Positions 26,410 through 51,214 of a DNA stretch of 64,000 bases are shown in pieces (within the stretch, counting starts at the first letter, position 1; each line of letters begins with the position of its first letter). The stretch lies in contig NZ_KB912877.1 in assembly GCF_000383855.1 (NCBI RefSeq), forward strand, positions 3,735,804-3,799,803. Direction: 5' to 3'. The notes under the pieces were generated by a model. It worked only from the letters and a program-made list of their open reading frames with translations, did no database searches and had not been told where the DNA came from. Source of the stretch: Methylobacter marinus A45 (GTDB lineage: Bacteria; Pseudomonadota; Gammaproteobacteria; Methylococcales; Methylomonadaceae). The translations under genes and the position numbers were made by a program.

Positions 26410-26496
26410 TGGTGCCGAGGAGAGGACTTGAACCTCCACTGGGTTGCCCCAACTAGCACCTGAAGCTAGCGTGTCTACCAATTTCACCACCTCGGC
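26410..26496 (-). tRNA. tRNA-Leu(CAG)
   Basis: Read on the minus strand the 87-nt sequence starts GCCGAGGTGGTGAAATTGG and ends in encoded CCA. The acceptor arms GCCGAGG/CCTCGGC pair; the anticodon stem CTAGC/GCTAG encloses TTCAGGT with anticodon CAG; a long variable arm (TTGGGGCAACCCA) marks a class II leucine tRNA; the T-arm carries GTTCAAGTC. It decodes CUG, likely the dominant leucine codon here. Confidence 0.97.
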
Positions 26497-42226: not shown

Positions 42227-44167
42227 TTACCGTGAACCGCCGGTTTTATACAAATTAATCACGCTGCCTGCCAGGACCATCCGGACCTGCCGCGGCGTCA
42301 TCGTGTGCCGGGTGAAAAAAGTTGCGTTCCGGGTTTTGTTGACGACCGTGACGGTATTGCCCTGCTGAATCTCTTCCTTGGCATTGGGCAGTTCAAGGCT
42401 ATCGTTCAGATCGATTATGTCGTAATCGGCCTCGTCGGCGAAGACCAGCGGCAGGATGCCGAAATTGCACAGATTCTGCCAGTGAATGCGGGCAAAGCTT
42501 TTGGCGATGACGGCCCTGACGCCGAGATGGCGCGGCGCCAATGCCGCATGCTCGCGGCTTGAACCCTGGCCGTAGTTGATGCCGCCGACGATCAACGAGC
42601 CGGTCAGCTGATACGGCATGGCCCGGTCGTAGTACGACTCGTCGAGCTGGGAAAAGGTAAATTTGCTGATCTCGGGAATATTGCTGCGATACGGCAGCAC
42701 CTTGGCGCCGGCCGGCATGATCTCATCGGTCGAGACATTGTCGCCCACTTTCATCAGCACCGGCCCTGCCAGGCTTTGCGGCAGAGGCTCAAATGCCGGC
42801 AGCGAGGCGATGTTCGGTCCCTTCACCAGTTCCACGGTCGAGCCGTCCTCGGGCGGCGGCGTCAGCGCCTCGGTATTGAGGATATAGGTCTTCGGCTCCT
42901 CAAATTTCGGATAGGGCATGGACAAGTTACGCGGATCGGTGATAACGCCGGTAATGGCGGAGGCGGCGGCCGTCTCGGGGCTGCAAAGATAGACCAGATC
43001 TTCCTTCGTGCCCGAACGTCCGGGGAAGTTGCGCGGCACGGTTCTGAGGCTGATCCGGTGAGTGGCCGGCGCCTGGCCCATGCCGATGCAGCCGTCGCAG
43101 CCGGCCTGATGGATGCGCGCGCCCTGATGAATCAAGGTGCCGAGATAGCCCAGCCGGGTCATGTTTTCAAGGATCTGCCGCGAGGTCGGATTGACATCGA
43201 GCGATACGTCTTCATGCACCGGGTGATCCTTCAGGATCATCGCCACGATCGCGAAATCCCGAAGCCCCGGATTTGCCGATGAACCGATCATGCACTGATA
43301 GACTTTTCGCCCCGCGACTTCGCTGACCGGCACGACGTTGCCGGGGCTGCTGGGGCAGGCGATCAGGGGCACGAGCTCCGAGAGGTTGACCTCGATATGC
43401 TCATCGTAGGCCGCGCCCGGATCGGCCAGCAGTTCGATCCAGTCGCCGGCGCGCGCCTGCGAGTCCAGAAAGCTTTTCACGGCCTGGTCCGATGGGAACA
43501 CGCTGGTCGTCGCGCCGAGTTCGGCGCCCATGTTGGCGATCACGTGCCTGTCCATCGCGCTGAGCTGGTCCAGGCCCGGTCCGTAATATTCCATGATCTT
43601 GCCGATGCCGCCCGGCACGTCGAGACGGCGCAGCAGTTCCAGGATGATATCCTTGGCGCTGACCCAGTCCGGCAGTTGGCCGGTCAGCTTGACGCCGACG
43701 ACTTTCGGCATCTTCACATGAAACGGCTGGCCGGCTATCGTCAAGGCGACCTCGAGGCCGCCGGCGCCGATCGCCAGCATGCCCATGGAGCCGGCGGCGC
43801 AGGTATGGCTGTCGGAACCGAGCAACGTCTTGCCCGGCTTGCCGAAGCGCTCCATATGCACCGGATGGCTGACGCCGTTGCCGGGACGGCTGAACCAGAG
43901 GCCGAATCTACGGCAGGCGCTCTGCAGAAACAGGTGATCGTCGGCATTCTTGAAGTCGGTCTCCAGCAGATTGTGGTCGACATACTGGACCGAGACTTCG
44001 GTTTGGGCACGGTCCAGTTCCATGGCCTCAAGCTCCAGCATCACCATCGTGCCGGTCGCATCCTGGGTCAGGGTCTGGTCTATTTTCAGGGCAATTTCTT
44101 GCCCCGGCGTCATGTCGCCTTCGAGCAGATGGCTTTCAATCAATTTTTGCGTCACATTTTTAGGCAT
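42227..44167 (-). CDS. Aconitate hydratase (short, single-chain type)
   Basis: 646 residues. An N-terminal aconitase catalytic region with GSDSHTCAAGSMGMLAIGAGGLEVA and the iron-sulfur cysteines in SDSHTC and AGCDGCIGMG, then a swivel domain (YGQGSSREHAALAPRHLGVRAVIAKSFARIH). It is much shorter than AcnA/AcnB and resembles the putative-aconitase/homoaconitase-like group related to the mitochondrial enzyme. Isomerises citrate and isocitrate in the TCA cycle; a related substrate is possible. The ATG at 44167 (MPKNVTQKLIE) has AGGAGA 7-12 bases upstream; the frame stays open to 44296 but that extension is Arg-rich and unlike the family. Confidence 0.93.
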   Translation of the reverse strand: MPKNVTQKLIESHLLEGDMTPGQEIALKIDQTLTQDATGTMVMLELEAMELDRAQTEVSVQYVDHNLLETDFKNADDHLFLQSACRRFGLWFSRPGNGVSHPVHMERFGKPGKTLLGSDSHTCAAGSMGMLAIGAGGLEVALTIAGQPFHVKMPKVVGVKLTGQLPDWVSAKDIILELLRRLDVPGGIGKIMEYYGPGLDQLSAMDRHVIANMGAELGATTSVFPSDQAVKSFLDSQARAGDWIELLADPGAAYDEHIEVNLSELVPLIACPSSPGNVVPVSEVAGRKVYQCMIGSSANPGLRDFAIVAMILKDHPVHEDVSLDVNPTSRQILENMTRLGYLGTLIHQGARIHQAGCDGCIGMGQAPATHRISLRTVPRNFPGRSGTKEDLVYLCSPETAAASAITGVITDPRNLSMPYPKFEEPKTYILNTEALTPPPEDGSTVELVKGPNIASLPAFEPLPQSLAGPVLMKVGDNVSTDEIMPAGAKVLPYRSNIPEISKFTFSQLDESYYDRAMPYQLTGSLIVGGINYGQGSSREHAALAPRHLGVRAVIAKSFARIHWQNLCNFGILPLVFADEADYDIIDLNDSLELPNAKEEIQQGNTVTVVNKTRNATFFTRHTMTPRQVRMVLAGSVINLYKTGGSR

Positions 44168-44302
44168 GGGTTTTCTCCTGCGGATGGAGTAGTAGGAACG
44201 CCAGCGCCGGTTGCCGCGCCTGCGGTTTTTCCAGTGTATCCGTCTCTGGTTAAGCGAATTCCATGCAATCCGATGTCGTCGATTCAATGCCTTCATGGGA
44301 CA

Positions 44303-44728
44303 TTACAGGATTTGCTCCGACAAGGCGATAATCAACGCGTAACGCAAGCTTTTGCCCAATCCGACCAGAATCAGGAATACCCAAAGGCGCACCCGCATGA
44401 TGCCGGCGATAAACGTCAAGGCATCGCCGCCGGCCGGCAGCCAGGACAACAATAAGGACCAGACGCCGAAACGCTGGTACCAGTGCTGGTAGCGGTGCAA
44501 TTGCGAAATCTTGAACGGAAACCAGCGTTTGTATTCGAAATGCAGCAGATAACGGCCTAAAAGCCAGTTTACGACCGCGCCCAGCGTGTTGCCAGACGAG
44601 GCAAACAGCCACAGCAGCCAGGGATCGTGGCCGGTAGCCAGCAGGCCGACCAGCGCCACTTCCGAATAAAACGGAATCAGCGTGGCGGCCAAAAAACTCA
44701 CTCCAAATAAACTGAAATAGGCGGTCAT
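44303..44728 (-). CDS. YqaA family membrane protein (DedA-related)
   Basis: A 141-residue inner-membrane protein: four helices, the SEVALVGLLATGHDPWLLW segment and ASSGNTLGAVVNWLLGRYL, plus WSLLLSWLPAGGDALTFIAGIMR, all typical of YqaA, a short SNARE-associated/DedA superfamily group. Its function is unknown; DedA relatives are lipid or undecaprenyl-phosphate flippases. It starts four bases after the stop of the C26 peptidase-like gene, so it belongs to the same operon. Confidence 0.88.
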   Translation of the reverse strand: MTAYFSLFGVSFLAATLIPFYSEVALVGLLATGHDPWLLWLFASSGNTLGAVVNWLLGRYLLHFEYKRWFPFKISQLHRYQHWYQRFGVWSLLLSWLPAGGDALTFIAGIMRVRLWVFLILVGLGKSLRYALIIALSEQIL

Positions 44729-44732
44729 ACTT

Positions 44733-45416
44733 TTATAGTTGTTGTCGGGCAGTGGTAACCAGCGCGCGAAACAGATTACGCTGGCGCGAGAGGTAGATCA
44801 GGTATTCGGGATGCCATTGAACCCCCAATAAAAATGGTTTCGACGGGTCTTCCACGGCTTGCACGATATTATCCAAATCACGGCCGGCGACTCTCAGACC
44901 GCTGCCCAACTCGTTAATGGCCTGCGTATGAAGACTATTAATCCGACAGCGCGTTGTTCCCAGCAGTTCCTGCATCCGGCTGTCCGGTTCCACCAGCAGG
45001 GTTTTCAGCGGCAGTACCGTGAAACGATTGCGCGTATGGCGGCGCAGTTCGCGCAGGTTCTGATGCAGATTGCCGCCCAGGTAGGTGTTGAGCAACTGCT
45101 CTCCGCGGCAGATGGCCAACATGGGAATATGCTGCCGCAGGGATTTTTCGATATACATCAATTCGAACAGATCCCGCTCCTTGTCATAACGGGTATTGGG
45201 CAGTTCCTCCGATTCGTAAAGCGTGGGATAAATATCATCGCCGCCGCCGATCACAATGCCGTCCAGCACCTCATGCAGATGCGAACGACGGGGAGTGAGC
45301 CTCAGGGGCTTGCCGCCGGCGGCGAGAATGGCATAACGCGTGAAGTGCCAGGCGCGATCCCCGCCCTTGCTGGGCCCTGTTACGCCAATTACAGGGTGTA
45401 TGAACGATGCAGCCAT
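44733..45416 (-). CDS. Class I glutamine amidotransferase-like / gamma-glutamyl hydrolase (peptidase C26) partner of amidoligase
   Basis: 227 residues. IVIGGGDDIYP near the N-terminus, the nucleophile elbow LAICRGEQLLN (Cys), and GVQWHPE with the catalytic His and Glu at the C-terminus form the C26 triad. Relatives (PuuD) cleave gamma-glutamyl amide bonds. The ATG at 45416 (MAASFIHPVIGVTGP) is preferred over an upstream in-frame ATG at 45491 because the C26 fold starts at HPVIGVTGP. It overlaps the end of the amidoligase gene by 28 bases, showing tight coupling. Role with the amidoligase (trimming or deamidating its product) is known only by analogy. Confidence 0.88.
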   Translation of the reverse strand: MAASFIHPVIGVTGPSKGGDRAWHFTRYAILAAGGKPLRLTPRRSHLHEVLDGIVIGGGDDIYPTLYESEELPNTRYDKERDLFELMYIEKSLRQHIPMLAICRGEQLLNTYLGGNLHQNLRELRRHTRNRFTVLPLKTLLVEPDSRMQELLGTTRCRINSLHTQAINELGSGLRVAGRDLDNIVQAVEDPSKPFLLGVQWHPEYLIYLSRQRNLFRALVTTARQQL

Positions 45417-46393
45417 ATCTCGACAGTATCTTTCCAGTCCTTGAACAGATCGGCCAAGGGCCTGTCCAAAAAACGCGAATAAGTTTGGCACAGGCTATTC
45501 AGATGGCCGGCATCGCAGGCCAGGTTTTCGACCACCAGCCAGTTACGCCAATCTCCGTCTATGCTCCAGTCCGGCTGGTCGATCCGGCAGTTGGGCAGCC
45601 GGTAGTGCAGTGTGGGGCGGGGATGAATGCGATCGTCTTCAATGACCGACAGCGCCCGCGCTTTGTCCAGATAAGCGAACAGCGGCAGCATATCAAGCGC
45701 CCGGTTGCGGGTAGGGTTGGCCAACAGGTAATCGTCGATCAAGTCGTTCTGGTCGGGGTGGTAACCCAGGTCGATGACCTGTCGGATATAGTCGGTGGGA
45801 AAAGGGGCGATGTAACCGGTCATGGATCGGGTCAGATCGATCTCGCTGCGGTAAACCAGCCAGTCATACAGGCAAAGGAAAGCCTTGAGGTAAGCAACGA
45901 TGGTTTCCGGTTCCAGGCTGGGCAGTTCCGGGTTGAAATGCAGGCCGAAAGCATTCAGCGTGCCGCTGTCCGTGCCTTGGGCGCCCGAGGCTCGCAGAAT
46001 CGGGATCAAAAGCGCCAACTCGCCTAGACGGTCCATCGGAATCGGCGGTGAAATGACTTCAAAAGGCACGATCTGTTCGGCCGCCAGGCGCACGATCTGT
46101 TCGGACCATTCGTCGAGCAGGGCGAAAGGATCCTCGGGATCTATCTTGTAGCGGCCTTTTTTCTTCAGGTATTGAAAATCCAGCTCGACTTTGAAATCGC
46201 CCAGACAGGTGTCGGCGATGGTGTTCTCATAAGCGCTATTGACCTGTATGGTGCCGCCGAACTGTTGGTGGATCAGCCGGGCGATGTGTTCCAGGGATAA
46301 GCCCGCGAATTCCAGCTCTACGCCCACTCGCCTCATTGCTCCCGATGCCGTGGCACAGTTAGGGGGAAGAGGAAGTATGGGGGCCTGATGCAT
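45389..46393 (-). CDS. Amidoligase family protein (COOH-NH2 ligase, PF12224-like)
   Basis: 334 residues. GVELEFAGLSLEHIARLI near the start is the glutamine-synthetase-like amidoligase signature (G.E.E), followed by KVELDFQYL, a central VSPPIPMDRL-like segment (EVISPPIPMDRLGEL) and FGLHFNPELP, all family hallmarks. These proteins are predicted ATP-dependent ligases making amide or peptide bonds between small molecules or to proteins; none is well characterised. First gene of the amidoligase / C26 hydrolase / YqaA operon. The start at 46393 leads directly into MHQAPILPLPPNCA. Confidence 0.88.
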   Translation of the reverse strand: MHQAPILPLPPNCATASGAMRRVGVELEFAGLSLEHIARLIHQQFGGTIQVNSAYENTIADTCLGDFKVELDFQYLKKKGRYKIDPEDPFALLDEWSEQIVRLAAEQIVPFEVISPPIPMDRLGELALLIPILRASGAQGTDSGTLNAFGLHFNPELPSLEPETIVAYLKAFLCLYDWLVYRSEIDLTRSMTGYIAPFPTDYIRQVIDLGYHPDQNDLIDDYLLANPTRNRALDMLPLFAYLDKARALSVIEDDRIHPRPTLHYRLPNCRIDQPDWSIDGDWRNWLVVENLACDAGHLNSLCQTYSRFLDRPLADLFKDWKDTVEIWLHRSYTL

Positions 46394-46564
46394 AAAAGCC
46401 TGTCGTTTATGGCGGTGCGGCGGAGCCGGAACCGGTATGGCGCCTGGTCAGGATGCACTAATCGTTATCGAGAATACAAACCGATAAATCCGAACTGTTG
46501 CCGTAAGTGTTTTTCTTCATTATCCCGTCGGGTCGATAAAGATCAATAAGTCAAAATACTTAAT

Positions 46565-46612
46565 GGAGGTTACGCATGTGCCGTTTTTTCCGTGCGGTGC
46601 GAATTTATTTTC
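46565..46612. repeat. TTACGCATG-type repeat fragment
   Basis: GGTTACGCATGTGCCGTTTT followed by a CGTGCGGTGCGAATTTATT stretch resembles the left half of the element at 40820 and the copy at 51892. The rest of 46394-46627 shows no gene. Confidence 0.55.
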
Positions 46613-46627
46613 CGGTTTATTCCAGGC

Positions 46628-47728
46628 TCATTCGCTGTAGGTTCCGGTAGCCAAAGGCCGTACCGTTTCAATCAACAACCGGTTAAATGCTTCGGGCTCT
46701 TCAAAAGGCGGGTTATGCGCCGAATGTTCAAACCAGACCAGCCGTTTACAGGGCGCCCGAATCGTCTTGAAATAGCGCTCGGCCAGGATGGCGGGCACAT
46801 GCCGGTCGTAGCGTCCGAGCAGAAAAAATAGCGGCACCTCGAAGGTCCGGCAACACTTGCTCAGATTGAGCTGTGAAATCTCGTCTTCAAGCTGTTCCAG
46901 GGAAAAGCGGTTGCCTTGGCCGAATTTGACGAGGTCGACCAGATTTGCCTCATCGGTGCCGAGCGCCGCCCAGATCAGTTTGCCCGTGGAAAGATTGCCA
47001 TGGAACATGCCGCCGAACCGCTCGACCCAGGTGCCGACGGTCAGCATGTCGTCGACCGAGGCATAGGGCGGCGGGCCGATCTCCTGCAATTCCGAGAGGG
47101 CTTTGGCATTTTCGCGCTTTTGGGCTTCGGAAAGCGCGAACGCATAGGACAAACGGCGCGCCTGGGCTGTGTCGGCCATTTGCGCCACGCCCACGTAAGC
47201 CGCCACCTTTTCCGGATGGCGGGAGGCGTACAGCGTCCCCAGCACCGTGCCCCAGGACTGGCCCAGCAGCACGACCTTGTCCTTGCCGAAACGCCGTCTG
47301 ACCAGGTCCACCACTTCATCGAGGTCTTGCACGAACTGGTCGATGGTCATGGATTCGGGCAGAATATCGGCTTGGAACGAGCGCCCGGCGCCACGTTGCT
47401 CCCAATACACGACCAGAAAATGTTGTTCGAGGTCGGCATTGTAATGGCGGAACAGCGCCGATTCGCTGGCGCCGGGCCCTCCATGCAGGAGAATCAGTGC
47501 CGGATTGTGCCGGGAGACGCCGCGAAACCAGATACTCTGAGGAACGCCGCCGATGGACACCGTTTCCATGGCCGCAATGCTGCCGGGGATAACCCGGCCT
47601 GCCGCGTCCTTGAACGGGGCGGTATGTATGCAGCCGGTACTCAGAAGGAGCAGCGTCAGGACCGTAACGCGGCAGAGCAAGGTAACGCCAGCCAGCTTTC
47701 GATGACCGCTTTCGTGATGATGAGTCAT
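46628..47728 (-). CDS. Alpha/beta hydrolase lipoprotein, proline iminopeptidase-like
   Basis: 366 residues. The N-terminal signal ends in a lipobox LLLSTGC (Cys about 33), so it is an exported lipoprotein. The mature part has LILLHGGPGASES (the HGGPG oxyanion motif of prolyl iminopeptidases), nucleophile GQSWGTVLG, the Asp region GRYDRHVP and His in FEHSAHNPPFEEP: a complete triad. Family members remove N-terminal proline or hydrolyse other small substrates. A membrane-anchored periplasmic form is less common than the cytosolic one. The stop lies about 230 bases from the amidoligase start, so it is probably a separate unit. Confidence 0.88.
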   Translation of the reverse strand: MTHHHESGHRKLAGVTLLCRVTVLTLLLLSTGCIHTAPFKDAAGRVIPGSIAAMETVSIGGVPQSIWFRGVSRHNPALILLHGGPGASESALFRHYNADLEQHFLVVYWEQRGAGRSFQADILPESMTIDQFVQDLDEVVDLVRRRFGKDKVVLLGQSWGTVLGTLYASRHPEKVAAYVGVAQMADTAQARRLSYAFALSEAQKRENAKALSELQEIGPPPYASVDDMLTVGTWVERFGGMFHGNLSTGKLIWAALGTDEANLVDLVKFGQGNRFSLEQLEDEISQLNLSKCCRTFEVPLFFLLGRYDRHVPAILAERYFKTIRAPCKRLVWFEHSAHNPPFEEPEAFNRLLIETVRPLATGTYSE

Positions 47729-49392: not shown

Positions 49393-49499
49393 GCGAATAT
49401 TTTTTCAACCTGACAGGCAACAGAGGCGGTACGGTTTCGGGAGAATGCCGAAACCGGCCGGTAGACGACAACCTTTCTCTTCTTGCCGGAGAGTATTAA
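49389..49499 (+). CDS. Possible small protein (36 residues), coupled to the preceding one
   Basis: ATG at 49389 overlaps the previous stop (ATGA). Product MSEYFFNLTGNRGGTVSGEC and so on to a TAA at 49497. Together with the frame before it this fills the space between two larger genes. Unrecognised. Confidence 0.4.
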   Translation: MSEYFFNLTGNRGGTVSGECRNRPVDDNLSLLAGEY

Positions 49500-49504
49500 G
49501 CAAA

Positions 49505-49553
49505 CTGGCGGGGCCGGTAGCCGCCTGTCCCACCTTGTATTTCATTCGCACAA
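49505..49553 (+). repeat. Intergenic hairpin repeat, copy 2
   Basis: GGCGG...CCGCC stem containing GGTAGCCGCC followed by ATTCGCACA, parallel to copy 1 at 49211. It ends about 17 bases before the start of the 49570 gene. Confidence 0.5.
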
Positions 49554-49569
49554 TTCAGGTATTGTATTT

Positions 49570-50397
49570 ATGTATTCATCAACACAGATAATTGACCGGG
49601 GAAAACCGGCCGACAACCAAAATACCCAATTGCCGGTGATTTCCGCGAATCCGCTGGATCTTCCCGCAACCACATTCAAAGAGGGTCTGGACCGCCGCAA
49701 GACCAACCGTGCCGTGCTCATGGCCTGGGTGCGCGACGCCCTGGTGGAAGGTATCGATTACGGCAGGGTGCATATCGTCCACCGGAGCAAGTGTCACGCC
49801 GGAAAGGATTGCAGAAACCCGGCCCACTTCAGCAAACCCAGCCTGTTCAAGCCCGGCGCCGAGAAAATTTGCGGCATGCTGGGCCTGACGGTGCGTTACC
49901 CGACCTTGCCGGATTATGAACAGGCGGCGCTCACCGGCGCAAAGCTGAGCCAGATCATTATCCGCTGCGAGATCGTGGACGCATCCGGCCGGACGGTAGC
50001 CGACGGGGTAGGGGCGCGCTTGTTGTCTCAGGATAACGGCGACATTAACAAAGCCTTGAAAATGGCTGAAAAATCCGCTCACATCGACGCCACGCTGAGA
50101 ATGGCGGGGCTTTCCGAAGTCTTCACCCAGGATCTCGAGGACATGGTACAGCGTCGGGACATCGAAAGCGCCCAGCCGGTCGAAGCCGAGCCAGACAGCG
50201 ATCCTCATCGCATTAACGAAACCCAGCTTCAGCAGCTTGAAGCCCGGATTGAAGAACTTGGCCTGGATCCGGACCGGGTTAAGAACTGGATGACCAAGGC
50301 GTCAAAGAACCGTTTTAACAGCTTTGCGGAACTGGATACGGACTTCTACCAGATTCTTTACCGCAAGCTTGACCAGTTCGCAAGGGTGACGGAATGA
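49570..50397 (+). CDS. Phage-type protein with LFKPGAEKI motif, possibly recombination-associated
   Basis: 275 residues. KTNRAVLMAWVRDALVEGIDYG, a Cys/His-containing loop (HRSKCHAGKDCRNPAHF), then the recognisable SKPSLFKPGAEKICGMLGLTV stretch, a beta-rich part (SQIIIRCEIVDASGRTVADG) and a helical KALKMAEKSAHIDATLRMAGL. Proteins with the KPxLxKPGAEK core are frequent in phages and integrative elements near recombination genes, but I know no proven function. The ATG at 49570 is the first after the hairpin repeat; the ribosome binding site is weak. Overlaps the Gp157-like gene (ATGA). Confidence 0.75.
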   Translation: MYSSTQIIDRGKPADNQNTQLPVISANPLDLPATTFKEGLDRRKTNRAVLMAWVRDALVEGIDYGRVHIVHRSKCHAGKDCRNPAHFSKPSLFKPGAEKICGMLGLTVRYPTLPDYEQAALTGAKLSQIIIRCEIVDASGRTVADGVGARLLSQDNGDINKALKMAEKSAHIDATLRMAGLSEVFTQDLEDMVQRRDIESAQPVEAEPDSDPHRINETQLQQLEARIEELGLDPDRVKNWMTKASKNRFNSFAELDTDFYQILYRKLDQFARVTE

Positions 50398-50897
50398 AGC
50401 ATCTAACGCTCTACCAATTGAGCGCCAACTACCTTGAAGCGCTGGACGTCTTGACCGATCCGGAGGCCGATCTGCCGATGGAAGCAATCAACGGCACGCT
50501 CGAGGCGTTGAGCGGCGAACTGGAAGACAAGGCGATCAATGTAGCCAAGTTCCTGCGCAACATGGAAGCGGCCGCCGAAGCGATCAAAAACGCCGAAGCG
50601 GGCATGAGTAAACGCCGGAAAACCCTGGAAAACCGGGTTACATGGCTGAAAAGCTACCTGAAAAACAATATGGAACATACCGGTATCAGCACCATTGAAT
50701 GTCCGTATTTCAAGCTTTCCATCCAGGATAACCCGGCCGCTATTCACATTGTGGATGAAGAAGCGATTCCGGATCAGTTCAAGGAACAGGTCGTCACCTG
50801 GAGAATCGACAAGACCGCGATCAAGGAGGCGATCAAGGCGGGCAAGGAGGTGCCCGGCGCCGAGCTGGTCAACGGCACCCGCCTGGCCATCAAATAA
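50394..50897 (+). CDS. Siphovirus Gp157-like protein
   Basis: 167 residues. The order is typical of the Sipho_Gp157 family: an N-terminal helical coiled coil (YLEALDVLTDPEADL...LEDKAINVAKFLRNMEAAAEAIKNA), an Arg-rich KRRKTLENRVTWLKSYLKNNME segment, and a short beta C-terminal part (FKLSIQDNPAAIHIVDEEAIPDQF). Members occur in phage replication/recombination modules; one was linked to phage resistance in Streptococcus. Coupled to the preceding gene by ATGA and followed by a strong terminator. Confidence 0.85.
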   Translation: MKHLTLYQLSANYLEALDVLTDPEADLPMEAINGTLEALSGELEDKAINVAKFLRNMEAAAEAIKNAEAGMSKRRKTLENRVTWLKSYLKNNMEHTGISTIECPYFKLSIQDNPAAIHIVDEEAIPDQFKEQVVTWRIDKTAIKEAIKAGKEVPGAELVNGTRLAIK

Positions 50898-50917
50898 TCC
50901 GGGTCCGGTCAGCATCA

Positions 50918-50941
50918 GAGCCGCTTCGGCGGCTTTTTTTT
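50918..50941 (+). terminator. Rho-independent terminator of the phage-like cassette
   Basis: AGCCGC-TTCG-GCGGCT stem with a stable tetraloop followed by a run of T. It sits 21 bases after the Gp157-like stop. Confidence 0.92.
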
Positions 50942-50949
50942 GCCTTGAT

Positions 50950-50965
50950 TATGAATAAATTCATA
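50950..50965. promoter_or_regulatory. Operator palindrome 3 (before the regulator)
   Basis: TATGAATAAATTCATA, same half-sites as at 48700 and 48838, 33 bases before the ATG of the Cro/CI-type gene. The position suggests autoregulation. Confidence 0.7.
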
Positions 50966-50998
50966 TAATGCCGCGTTTCACTCAGGGCAGGATCTCCG

Positions 50999-51214
50999 AT
51001 GCAAATAGGCGACAGAATAAAACGCAAGCGGCTTGAACGCGGCTTGGTCCAAAAAGAACTTGAAAATCGCTCAGGCGTGACCCAGTCGATGATCAGCAAA
51101 GTGGAAGGCGGCAGCGCCGAAAATGTCTCCATCGATGTGCTCAGGAGACTGGCCAAAGCCTTAAACTGCCCGCTGATCGACTTGCTTCCCGATACTGACA
51201 AGAAGGGAAGCTGA
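50999..51214 (+). CDS. Cro/CI-family helix-turn-helix regulator
   Basis: A 71-residue XRE-type DNA-binding domain: IGDRIKRKRLERGLVQKELENRSGVTQSMISKVEGG spans helices 1-3 with the recognition helix around TQSMISKVE, then IDVLRRLAKALNCPLIDLLP. No extra domain. The palindromes with identical half-sites before the cassette and before this gene are its likely targets. Good candidate for the switch of the small cassette at 48.9-50.9 kb. Confidence 0.9.
   Translation: MQIGDRIKRKRLERGLVQKELENRSGVTQSMISKVEGGSAENVSIDVLRRLAKALNCPLIDLLPDTDKKGS

Follow-up and report, generated by a model that had tools for sequence, protein, structure and literature searches.

A YqaA-bearing variant of an uncharacterised amidoligase–hydrolase operon in Methylobacter marinus, with links to gamma-glutamyl enzymes and the cell envelope

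The stretch of Methylobacter marinus A45 DNA analysed here (the window; 64,000 nucleotides, contig NZ_KB912877.1, positions 3,735,804 to 3,799,803) encodes, on its minus strand, an amidoligase (AL), a glutamine amidotransferase-like hydrolase of the class I glutaminase fold (GAT) and a YqaA-like membrane protein. The operon that these genes form is real and represents, in a version that includes YqaA, a type already known though uncharacterised; the pair of AL and GAT was itself predicted in 2008, and what is new are its links to gamma-glutamyl enzymes and to the envelope. Based on gene content, motifs and neighbourhoods in relatives, we propose that the operon handles a small gamma-glutamyl molecule, a reading to which we give an even chance. 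Its firmest part, the gamma-glutamyl chemistry, is probable, and its weakest step, YqaA as the carrier, is a guess from gene order that we regard as rather unlikely. The features of the locus are as follows.

45389..46393, minus strand: AL (Amidoligase_2, PF12224), 334 amino acids, by Pfam and an intact frame
44733..45416, minus strand: GAT (peptidase C26 / PuuD-type, class I glutaminase fold), 227 amino acids, by PF07722
44303..44728, minus strand: YqaA-like DedA/VTT membrane protein, 141 amino acids, by PF09335 and likeness to Escherichia coli YqaA
45389..45416, minus strand: overlap of 28 bases between the AL 3' end and the GAT 5' start, by frame coordinates
44729-44732, minus strand: spacer of 4 bases between GAT and YqaA, by frame coordinates
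46394..46627, minus strand: intergenic stretch of 234 bases 5' of AL, presumed promoter region of the operon

All three reading frames are intact, and the coordinates agree exactly with the initial annotation, made from the letters of the window, which had AL overlapping GAT by 28 bases and YqaA following 4 bases on. The overlap would fit coupled translation of the two genes, and an overlap of AL with GAT recurs in 56 of the 68 measurable loci of the wider set described below (72 with GAT), the GAT start having been picked by rule of thumb for this count. An alternative longer GAT frame, open from a GTG at 45491, is not needed because, counted from the ATG start, the likeness in the alignment of relatives sets in only at about residue 8. 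Scanning 5' of AL for promoters gave a single weak sigma-70-like site (46546-46519); across 44000-46700, three such sites were seen versus 1.8 expected.

AL matches PF12224 with 207.8 bits (cut-off 22) over positions 2-245 of the 245-position profile; this is the sole Pfam family matched, and no model of the NCBIfam scan matched. By its description, PF12224 appears to be the amidoligase family of Iyer, Burroughs and Aravind (PMC2588565), who give GhExE as the signature of the carboxylate-amine ligase superfamily. In AL the signature reads G24-V-E26-L-E28 (residues 24-28), and thirteen positions are invariant in 52 aligned sequences (G24, E26, E28, E70, D72, E112, N154, R189, R229, N230, R231, H263 and R265). 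The amidoligase with a G.E.E signature described initially therefore holds up and looks active; as to the loss of ATP or Mg ligands that would have refuted the initial reading, the GxExE residues are retained. Foldseek searches of the PDB with the AlphaFold model (predicted local distance difference test score, pLDDT, 91.4) returned only glutamine synthetase, glutamate–cysteine ligase (GCL), Dop and YbdK structures at ranks 1-18, with weak scores (best E 0.038). From the Pfam match, the motif and this consistent but weak fold signal, we predict that AL belongs to the glutamine synthetase/GCL superfamily and acts as an ATP-dependent carboxylate-amine ligase.

The partner is the class I glutaminase-fold C26 enzyme that had been annotated, with 160.8 bits to PF07722 (cut-off 20.5) and a further match to PF00117 (47.2 bits). 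C103, H202 and E204, which we take to be the catalytic triad, are invariant in 38 aligned sequences. Identity to E. coli PuuD is 34%, and the score on the NCBIfam PuuD equivalog PRK11366 is 83.5 bits, below the cut-off of 266. With a model of pLDDT 90.4, Foldseek ranks 1-14 are PuuD, Lin1909 and SpuA (best E 2.6e-20), and enzymes of the GMP/CTP synthase glutaminase type appear from rank 15 onward (best E 4.4e-12). By sequence and fold, the nearest relatives of GAT are thus the PuuD/SpuA gamma-glutamyl hydrolases and Lin1909.

The arrangement was followed at three depths. Among 151 genomes searched, the own genome included, AL gave 13 matches, one of which (L014; L, G and f denote our loci, genomes and families) was dropped as spurious, being weak, interrupted by stop codons and accompanied by none of the three genes. 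The order AL–GAT–YqaA is present in all 12 true AL-bearing genomes, so the arrangement is more than chance. A wider set consisted of the best 80 of at least 577 AL relatives from a scan of named genomes: 24 loci have AL, GAT and YqaA, 48 have AL and GAT, and eight have AL alone, so that GAT is present in 72 (in L052 it is cut by the contig end; the AL frame of L068 ends early, and that row was left unchanged). An even draw of 398 Pseudomonadota genomes yielded 22 with AL, 21 of them besides the window's own (L124-L144); GAT adjoins AL in 19 of these 21, and a linked YqaA was found in none. On a quickly built tree of 120 AL proteins, in which many forks are weak, the YqaA-bearing loci are spread over several AL clades. 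AL–GAT is therefore the core unit and the trio a sublineage trait; the expectation that the three genes are conserved as a set stands for the close relatives and for 24 of the best 80 loci, and fails for the even draw. Many AL hosts among the matches listed bear names of marine, salt-lake or soda-lake bacteria.

The gamma-glutamyl reading draws on the genes beside AL in the best 80 loci. Neighbours were scanned with Pfam, covering 39 of the 56 listed directly upstream on the same strand and 33 of the 43 listed downstream, leaving out short or spurious-looking frames, near-copies and four upstream RND genes. The 39 upstream neighbours comprise nine gamma-glutamyltransferases (GGT, PF01019), five gamma-glutamylcyclotransferases (PF06094, the GGACT domain) and three AI-2E proteins, and no other family occurs in more than two; the unscanned RND gene, in four loci of one clade, would take third rank. 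Nothing comparable was found among the 33 downstream neighbours, where YaeQ occurs in three. Counting any side, a cyclotransferase adjoins AL in seven of the 80 loci (L048, L066, L078, L088 and L090 upstream, L073 downstream, L075 divergent; L092, whose GGACT lies about 5 kb away, was excluded) and GGT in nine (L022, L030, L038, L047, L050, L055, L065, L079, L083). Of 60 Pseudomonadota genomes, 28 have PF06094 and 41 have PF01019, usually as a single copy or a few; by rough estimate, adjacency by chance would be well under 1% per locus. In L073 and L088, AL is accompanied by a cyclotransferase and the stretch examined showed no GAT, so GAT and cyclotransferase may substitute for each other as cleavers of gamma-glutamyl bonds.

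These neighbours also point to the envelope. In all seven linked cyclotransferases an N-terminal hydrophobic segment precedes the GGACT domain, whereas the unlinked GGACT protein of the window's genome starts directly with the domain. Using the L048 protein as query against the 398 genomes (E <= 1e-15, a setting that would overlook more distant forms), the anchored form was found in nine genomes, all nine among the 22 with AL (G200, G220, G236, G288, G324, G458, G464, G533, G545), a co-occurrence with a hypergeometric probability of 8e-13, uncorrected for kinship. In these genomes the gene is unlinked to AL, lying on other contigs or hundreds of kilobases away. Pfam confirmed GGACT in L048, L073, eight of the nine unlinked proteins and the soluble protein of the window's genome. 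Two genomes of family f18 (G196, G504) have neither AL nor the anchored cyclotransferase. The number of independent co-occurrence events is small, the clades of f18, of f20 and of the linked loci being three places on the AL tree, and the anchored form is present in nine of the 33 AL-bearing genomes tested; plasmid records did not match it.

All 16 anchored proteins, seven linked and nine unlinked, carry a net charge of +2 to +5 ahead of the hydrophobic segment and of 0 to -3 behind it, and therefore a periplasmic catalytic domain is predicted. Eight of the nine linked GGTs have a complete N-terminus, and in each a cysteine follows a hydrophobic stretch, lipobox-like by eye. The lipoprotein-like GGT and the anchored cyclotransferase are thus both predicted to face the periplasm. 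The initial annotation had read YqaA as a hint that the product acts at or crosses the membrane; a membrane link survives and is best seen in relatives, in which gamma-glutamyl enzymes predicted to reside in the envelope occur alongside the pair. The trio itself is not general, YqaA being linked in 24 of the best 80 loci and in none of the even draw.

The YqaA-like protein scores 59 bits on PF09335 (cut-off 33.9) and shares 41% identity with E. coli YqaA over 138 columns. Its earlier description as lipid-flippase-like is not upheld: it scores 23.1 bits on NCBIfam UptA, below the cut-off of 300, and the COG1238 branch of DedA proteins, in which we would place it from the use of an E. coli YqaA model in PMC10127716, is judged in that paper to be unlikely to comprise undecaprenyl-phosphate flippases. 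A YqaA homologue of Rhodanobacter has been tied to indium export (PMC8679861). The window's genome has a second, more distant YqaA-like gene (L205, 1617-2042; 82.7 bits).

AL and GAT could also be the working unit by themselves, with YqaA a mere bystander in the transcript, which is a serious possibility though short of an even one. Besides its patchy linkage in the best 80 loci and the even draw, YqaA is widespread without AL, and the 29 best YqaA loci outside the own genome (1.5 kb on each side) include AL in L161 alone and gshA in L176 alone. Against a bystander, order and tight spacing hold down to 37% AL identity in the 12 AL-bearing relatives, and linkage of YqaA recurs across several clades of AL. 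Specific co-inheritance of YqaA with AL was considered and judged weak: matches of at least 140 bits, counted by eye in the same 398 genomes, occur unlinked in 12 of 21 AL-positive genomes versus 65 of 376 AL-negative ones (Fisher 9e-5, ignoring kinship). General linkage of gshA and yqaA was likewise rejected, being seen in E. coli and in one of the 29 loci.

What is observed directly is the order of the genes, their intact motifs, their linkage and their co-occurrence; from these we infer the reaction, the gamma linkage, the export and its direction, the cargo and the topology of a small-molecule gamma-glutamyl operon, as follows. In the cytoplasm, with the help of ATP and Mg, AL would link the gamma-carboxyl group of glutamate (or that of a close analogue) with the amino group of an amine or amino acid X, yielding gamma-Glu-X. 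GAT, as a PuuD-type thiol hydrolase, would cleave gamma-Glu bonds of the compound or of a derivative, also in the cytoplasm, thereby recycling or limiting it. The compound, or its product, would cross the inner membrane; in relatives, the lipoprotein GGT or the membrane-anchored gamma-glutamylcyclotransferase would cleave it in the periplasm, and in the window's lineage YqaA would perform the membrane step as transporter or partner. Joined into a trans-membrane gamma-glutamyl cycle apart from glutathione, AL would make the compound, YqaA or a substitute export it, the lipoprotein GGT or the anchored enzyme cleave it in the periplasm and GAT recycle the cytoplasmic pool. We consider such a cycle unlikely; if true, the YqaA/COG1238 branch of DedA proteins would gain a cargo other than lipid.

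Several observations weigh against the proposal as a whole. If a single product had both its ligase and its hydrolase in the operon and no enzyme acted in between, the two would run a futile cycle, barring regulation or separation. Linkage to GGT and cyclotransferase is restricted to one AL clade of 39 rows (SH-aLRT 94), which has no linked YqaA, and it is absent from all 21 even-draw AL loci; the GGT and the soluble GGACT protein of the window's own genome are both unlinked to AL. The anchored cyclotransferase was not found in the window's genome, in 11 AL-bearing relatives or in 12 other AL genomes, and its unlinked co-occurrence with AL is confined to families f18 and f20. In one AL clade (L096-L098, L100, L143, L144), GAT and gamma-glutamyl neighbours are both missing, and the 65 AL-negative genomes with a strong YqaA match count likewise. 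On the enzyme itself, the AL sequence profile has no significant relative in the PDB (best E 0.57), Foldseek gives no significant fold relative there (none under E 0.001), and hhalign aligned nothing between AL and the single E. coli sequences of GshA and YbdK.

AL and GAT might instead form one glutamine-dependent amidotransferase, in which ammonia freed by GAT amidates a carboxylate through AL. The frequent overlap of the two genes would fit a fixed stoichiometry, and the PF00117 score, the retention of the pair in 72 of the best 80 loci and the pairing, in some phages, of PF12224 with a GATase of another kind, class II (PMC3890496, PMC10580990), would all suit it. However, the structures nearest to GAT are PuuD, Lin1909 and SpuA, with the GMP/CTP synthase glutaminase domains far behind, no GAT was found in L073 and L088, where AL stands beside a cyclotransferase, and the GAT-less clade named above indicates that AL can stand alone. 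We hold this explanation to be improbable. Still less probable is that the pair tags the cell wall or a peptide (amides of peptidoglycan or protein), with YqaA acting on a lipid-linked form. An amidoligase and a GATase have been given a cell-wall role in phage phiEco32, according to PMC10580990, which cites a 2009 amidoligase paper, and an Azospirillum AL lies near genes for undecaprenyl-diphosphate phosphatase and DedA, but that AL belongs to the GAT-less clade, no cell-wall family recurs among the neighbours listed (first 25 families per scan) and the partners that do recur act on small gamma-glutamyl compounds. Anti-phage defence was rejected, with no PADLOC match for AL, GAT or YqaA, as was phage origin, with no record of the phage collection matched by tblastn of AL, and plasmid origin, the 11 plasmid records that match AL all being below 60% identity (GAT adjoins in three of the seven examined).

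As the initial annotation stated, pairs of amidoligase and GAT were predicted by comparative genomics: the 2008 study reports a GAT-like thiol peptidase beside amidoligases in proteobacteria and an Aig2 cyclotransferase in firmicutes (PMC2588565). The proteobacterial pair is that of the operon, and the Aig2 neighbour anticipates the cyclotransferase of the AL relatives; the neighbourhood section of that paper names no YqaA, gamma-glutamyltransferase or membrane-anchored cyclotransferase. That the pair lacks a known product, as annotated, agrees with the literature found, which names none. No paper tying an amidoligase to GGT, an anchored cyclotransferase or YqaA was seen in that literature, in which subscription papers are mostly outside coverage.

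The Puu pathway of E. coli (PuuA, a gamma-glutamylputrescine synthetase, and PuuD) has a glutamate-amine ligase and a C26 hydrolase in one neighbourhood, as is proposed for AL and GAT. GAT, despite its identity to PuuD, falls below the PuuD equivalog cut-off, and AL is placed by Pfam in PF12224 alone; none of the four flanking genes, to which the search was confined, is PuuA-, PuuB- or PuuC-like. In Francisella, a ChaC with an N-terminal transmembrane anchor and a GGT both degrade glutathione in the periplasm (PMC7340319), and since they share this substrate the two activities are interchangeable there. In the AL relatives, GGT and an anchored cyclotransferase would similarly act in one compartment, on a gamma-glutamyl compound; the Francisella system differs in its substrate, glutathione, and in its ChaC-kind enzyme, the domain in the AL relatives being GGACT (PF06094). 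E. coli yqaA lies 72 bases upstream of gshA on the same strand, so that YqaA stands near the gene of a gamma-glutamyl ligase, as is proposed for the operon. GshA, however, is not alignable with AL by hhalign, and the linkage is rare (one of 29 loci, L176). Amidoligase clusters are also described in UFV-P2/LUZ24-like phages, OM43 phages and Phage-ZRK32 (PMC3890496, PMC10580990, PMC10945688). They share an amidoligase and a glutamine amidotransferase with the operon, and two of the three have an AIG2-like or gamma-glutamyl cyclotransferase; they differ in a class II GAT (GATase_6) in the two with a stated family, in that two carry additional genes of the ATP-grasp or glutathione-synthase type, and in that a tblastn search of the phage collection with the window's AL gave no match.

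Pfam assigns the four genes flanking the operon to an alpha/beta hydrolase (upstream, same strand, 46628-47728), an aconitase, an AI-2E transporter and a glyoxalase-like protein. The listed start of the aconitase open reading frame (42227-44296) lies 6 bases past yqaA; its family match begins at about residue 44, and therefore the true start is probably near 44170. Aconitase and AI-2E were rejected as operon members, following the trio only within the genus (three of 11 relatives, L145-L147, and the own genome). The AI-2E gene is the second downstream of yqaA in the window and in the three genus relatives, and AI-2E genes lie directly beside AL–GAT–YqaA in five further loci (upstream in L027, L028, L034 and L037, downstream in L049). 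Upstream RND genes (four Halieaceae loci) and a 662-amino-acid protein upstream in Salinivibrio were set aside, each being confined to one clade; in the Halieaceae loci L019, L023 and L024 an RND efflux gene stands directly upstream of AL, and GAT was not seen. On an Azospirillum plasmid (L097, 6061-10578), a GAT-less amidoligase is followed by a two-component system and, further on, by an undecaprenyl-diphosphate phosphatase on the opposite strand and a DedA protein, a further DedA neighbour in a distant amidoligase clade. Elsewhere in the window, a Mu Gam-like protein (50394-50897; phrog_253, 159.5 bits) and a phage-type helix-turn-helix regulator (50999-51214) suggest that a prophage, or what is left of one, probably lies at 49483-51214, and a tRNA gene far from the operon (26413-26496, minus strand) is the sole Rfam match at the gathering threshold.

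For a predicted pathway that has lacked a product since 2008, the nature of the bond (gamma-glutamyl), its location (the envelope) and a direct assay now suggest themselves, because a predicted periplasmic enzyme was found only alongside AL, in nine of nine cases among 398 genomes. If the proposal is true, many proteobacteria would export a gamma-glutamyl metabolite, and the least understood branch of the DedA membrane proteins would have a possible cargo.

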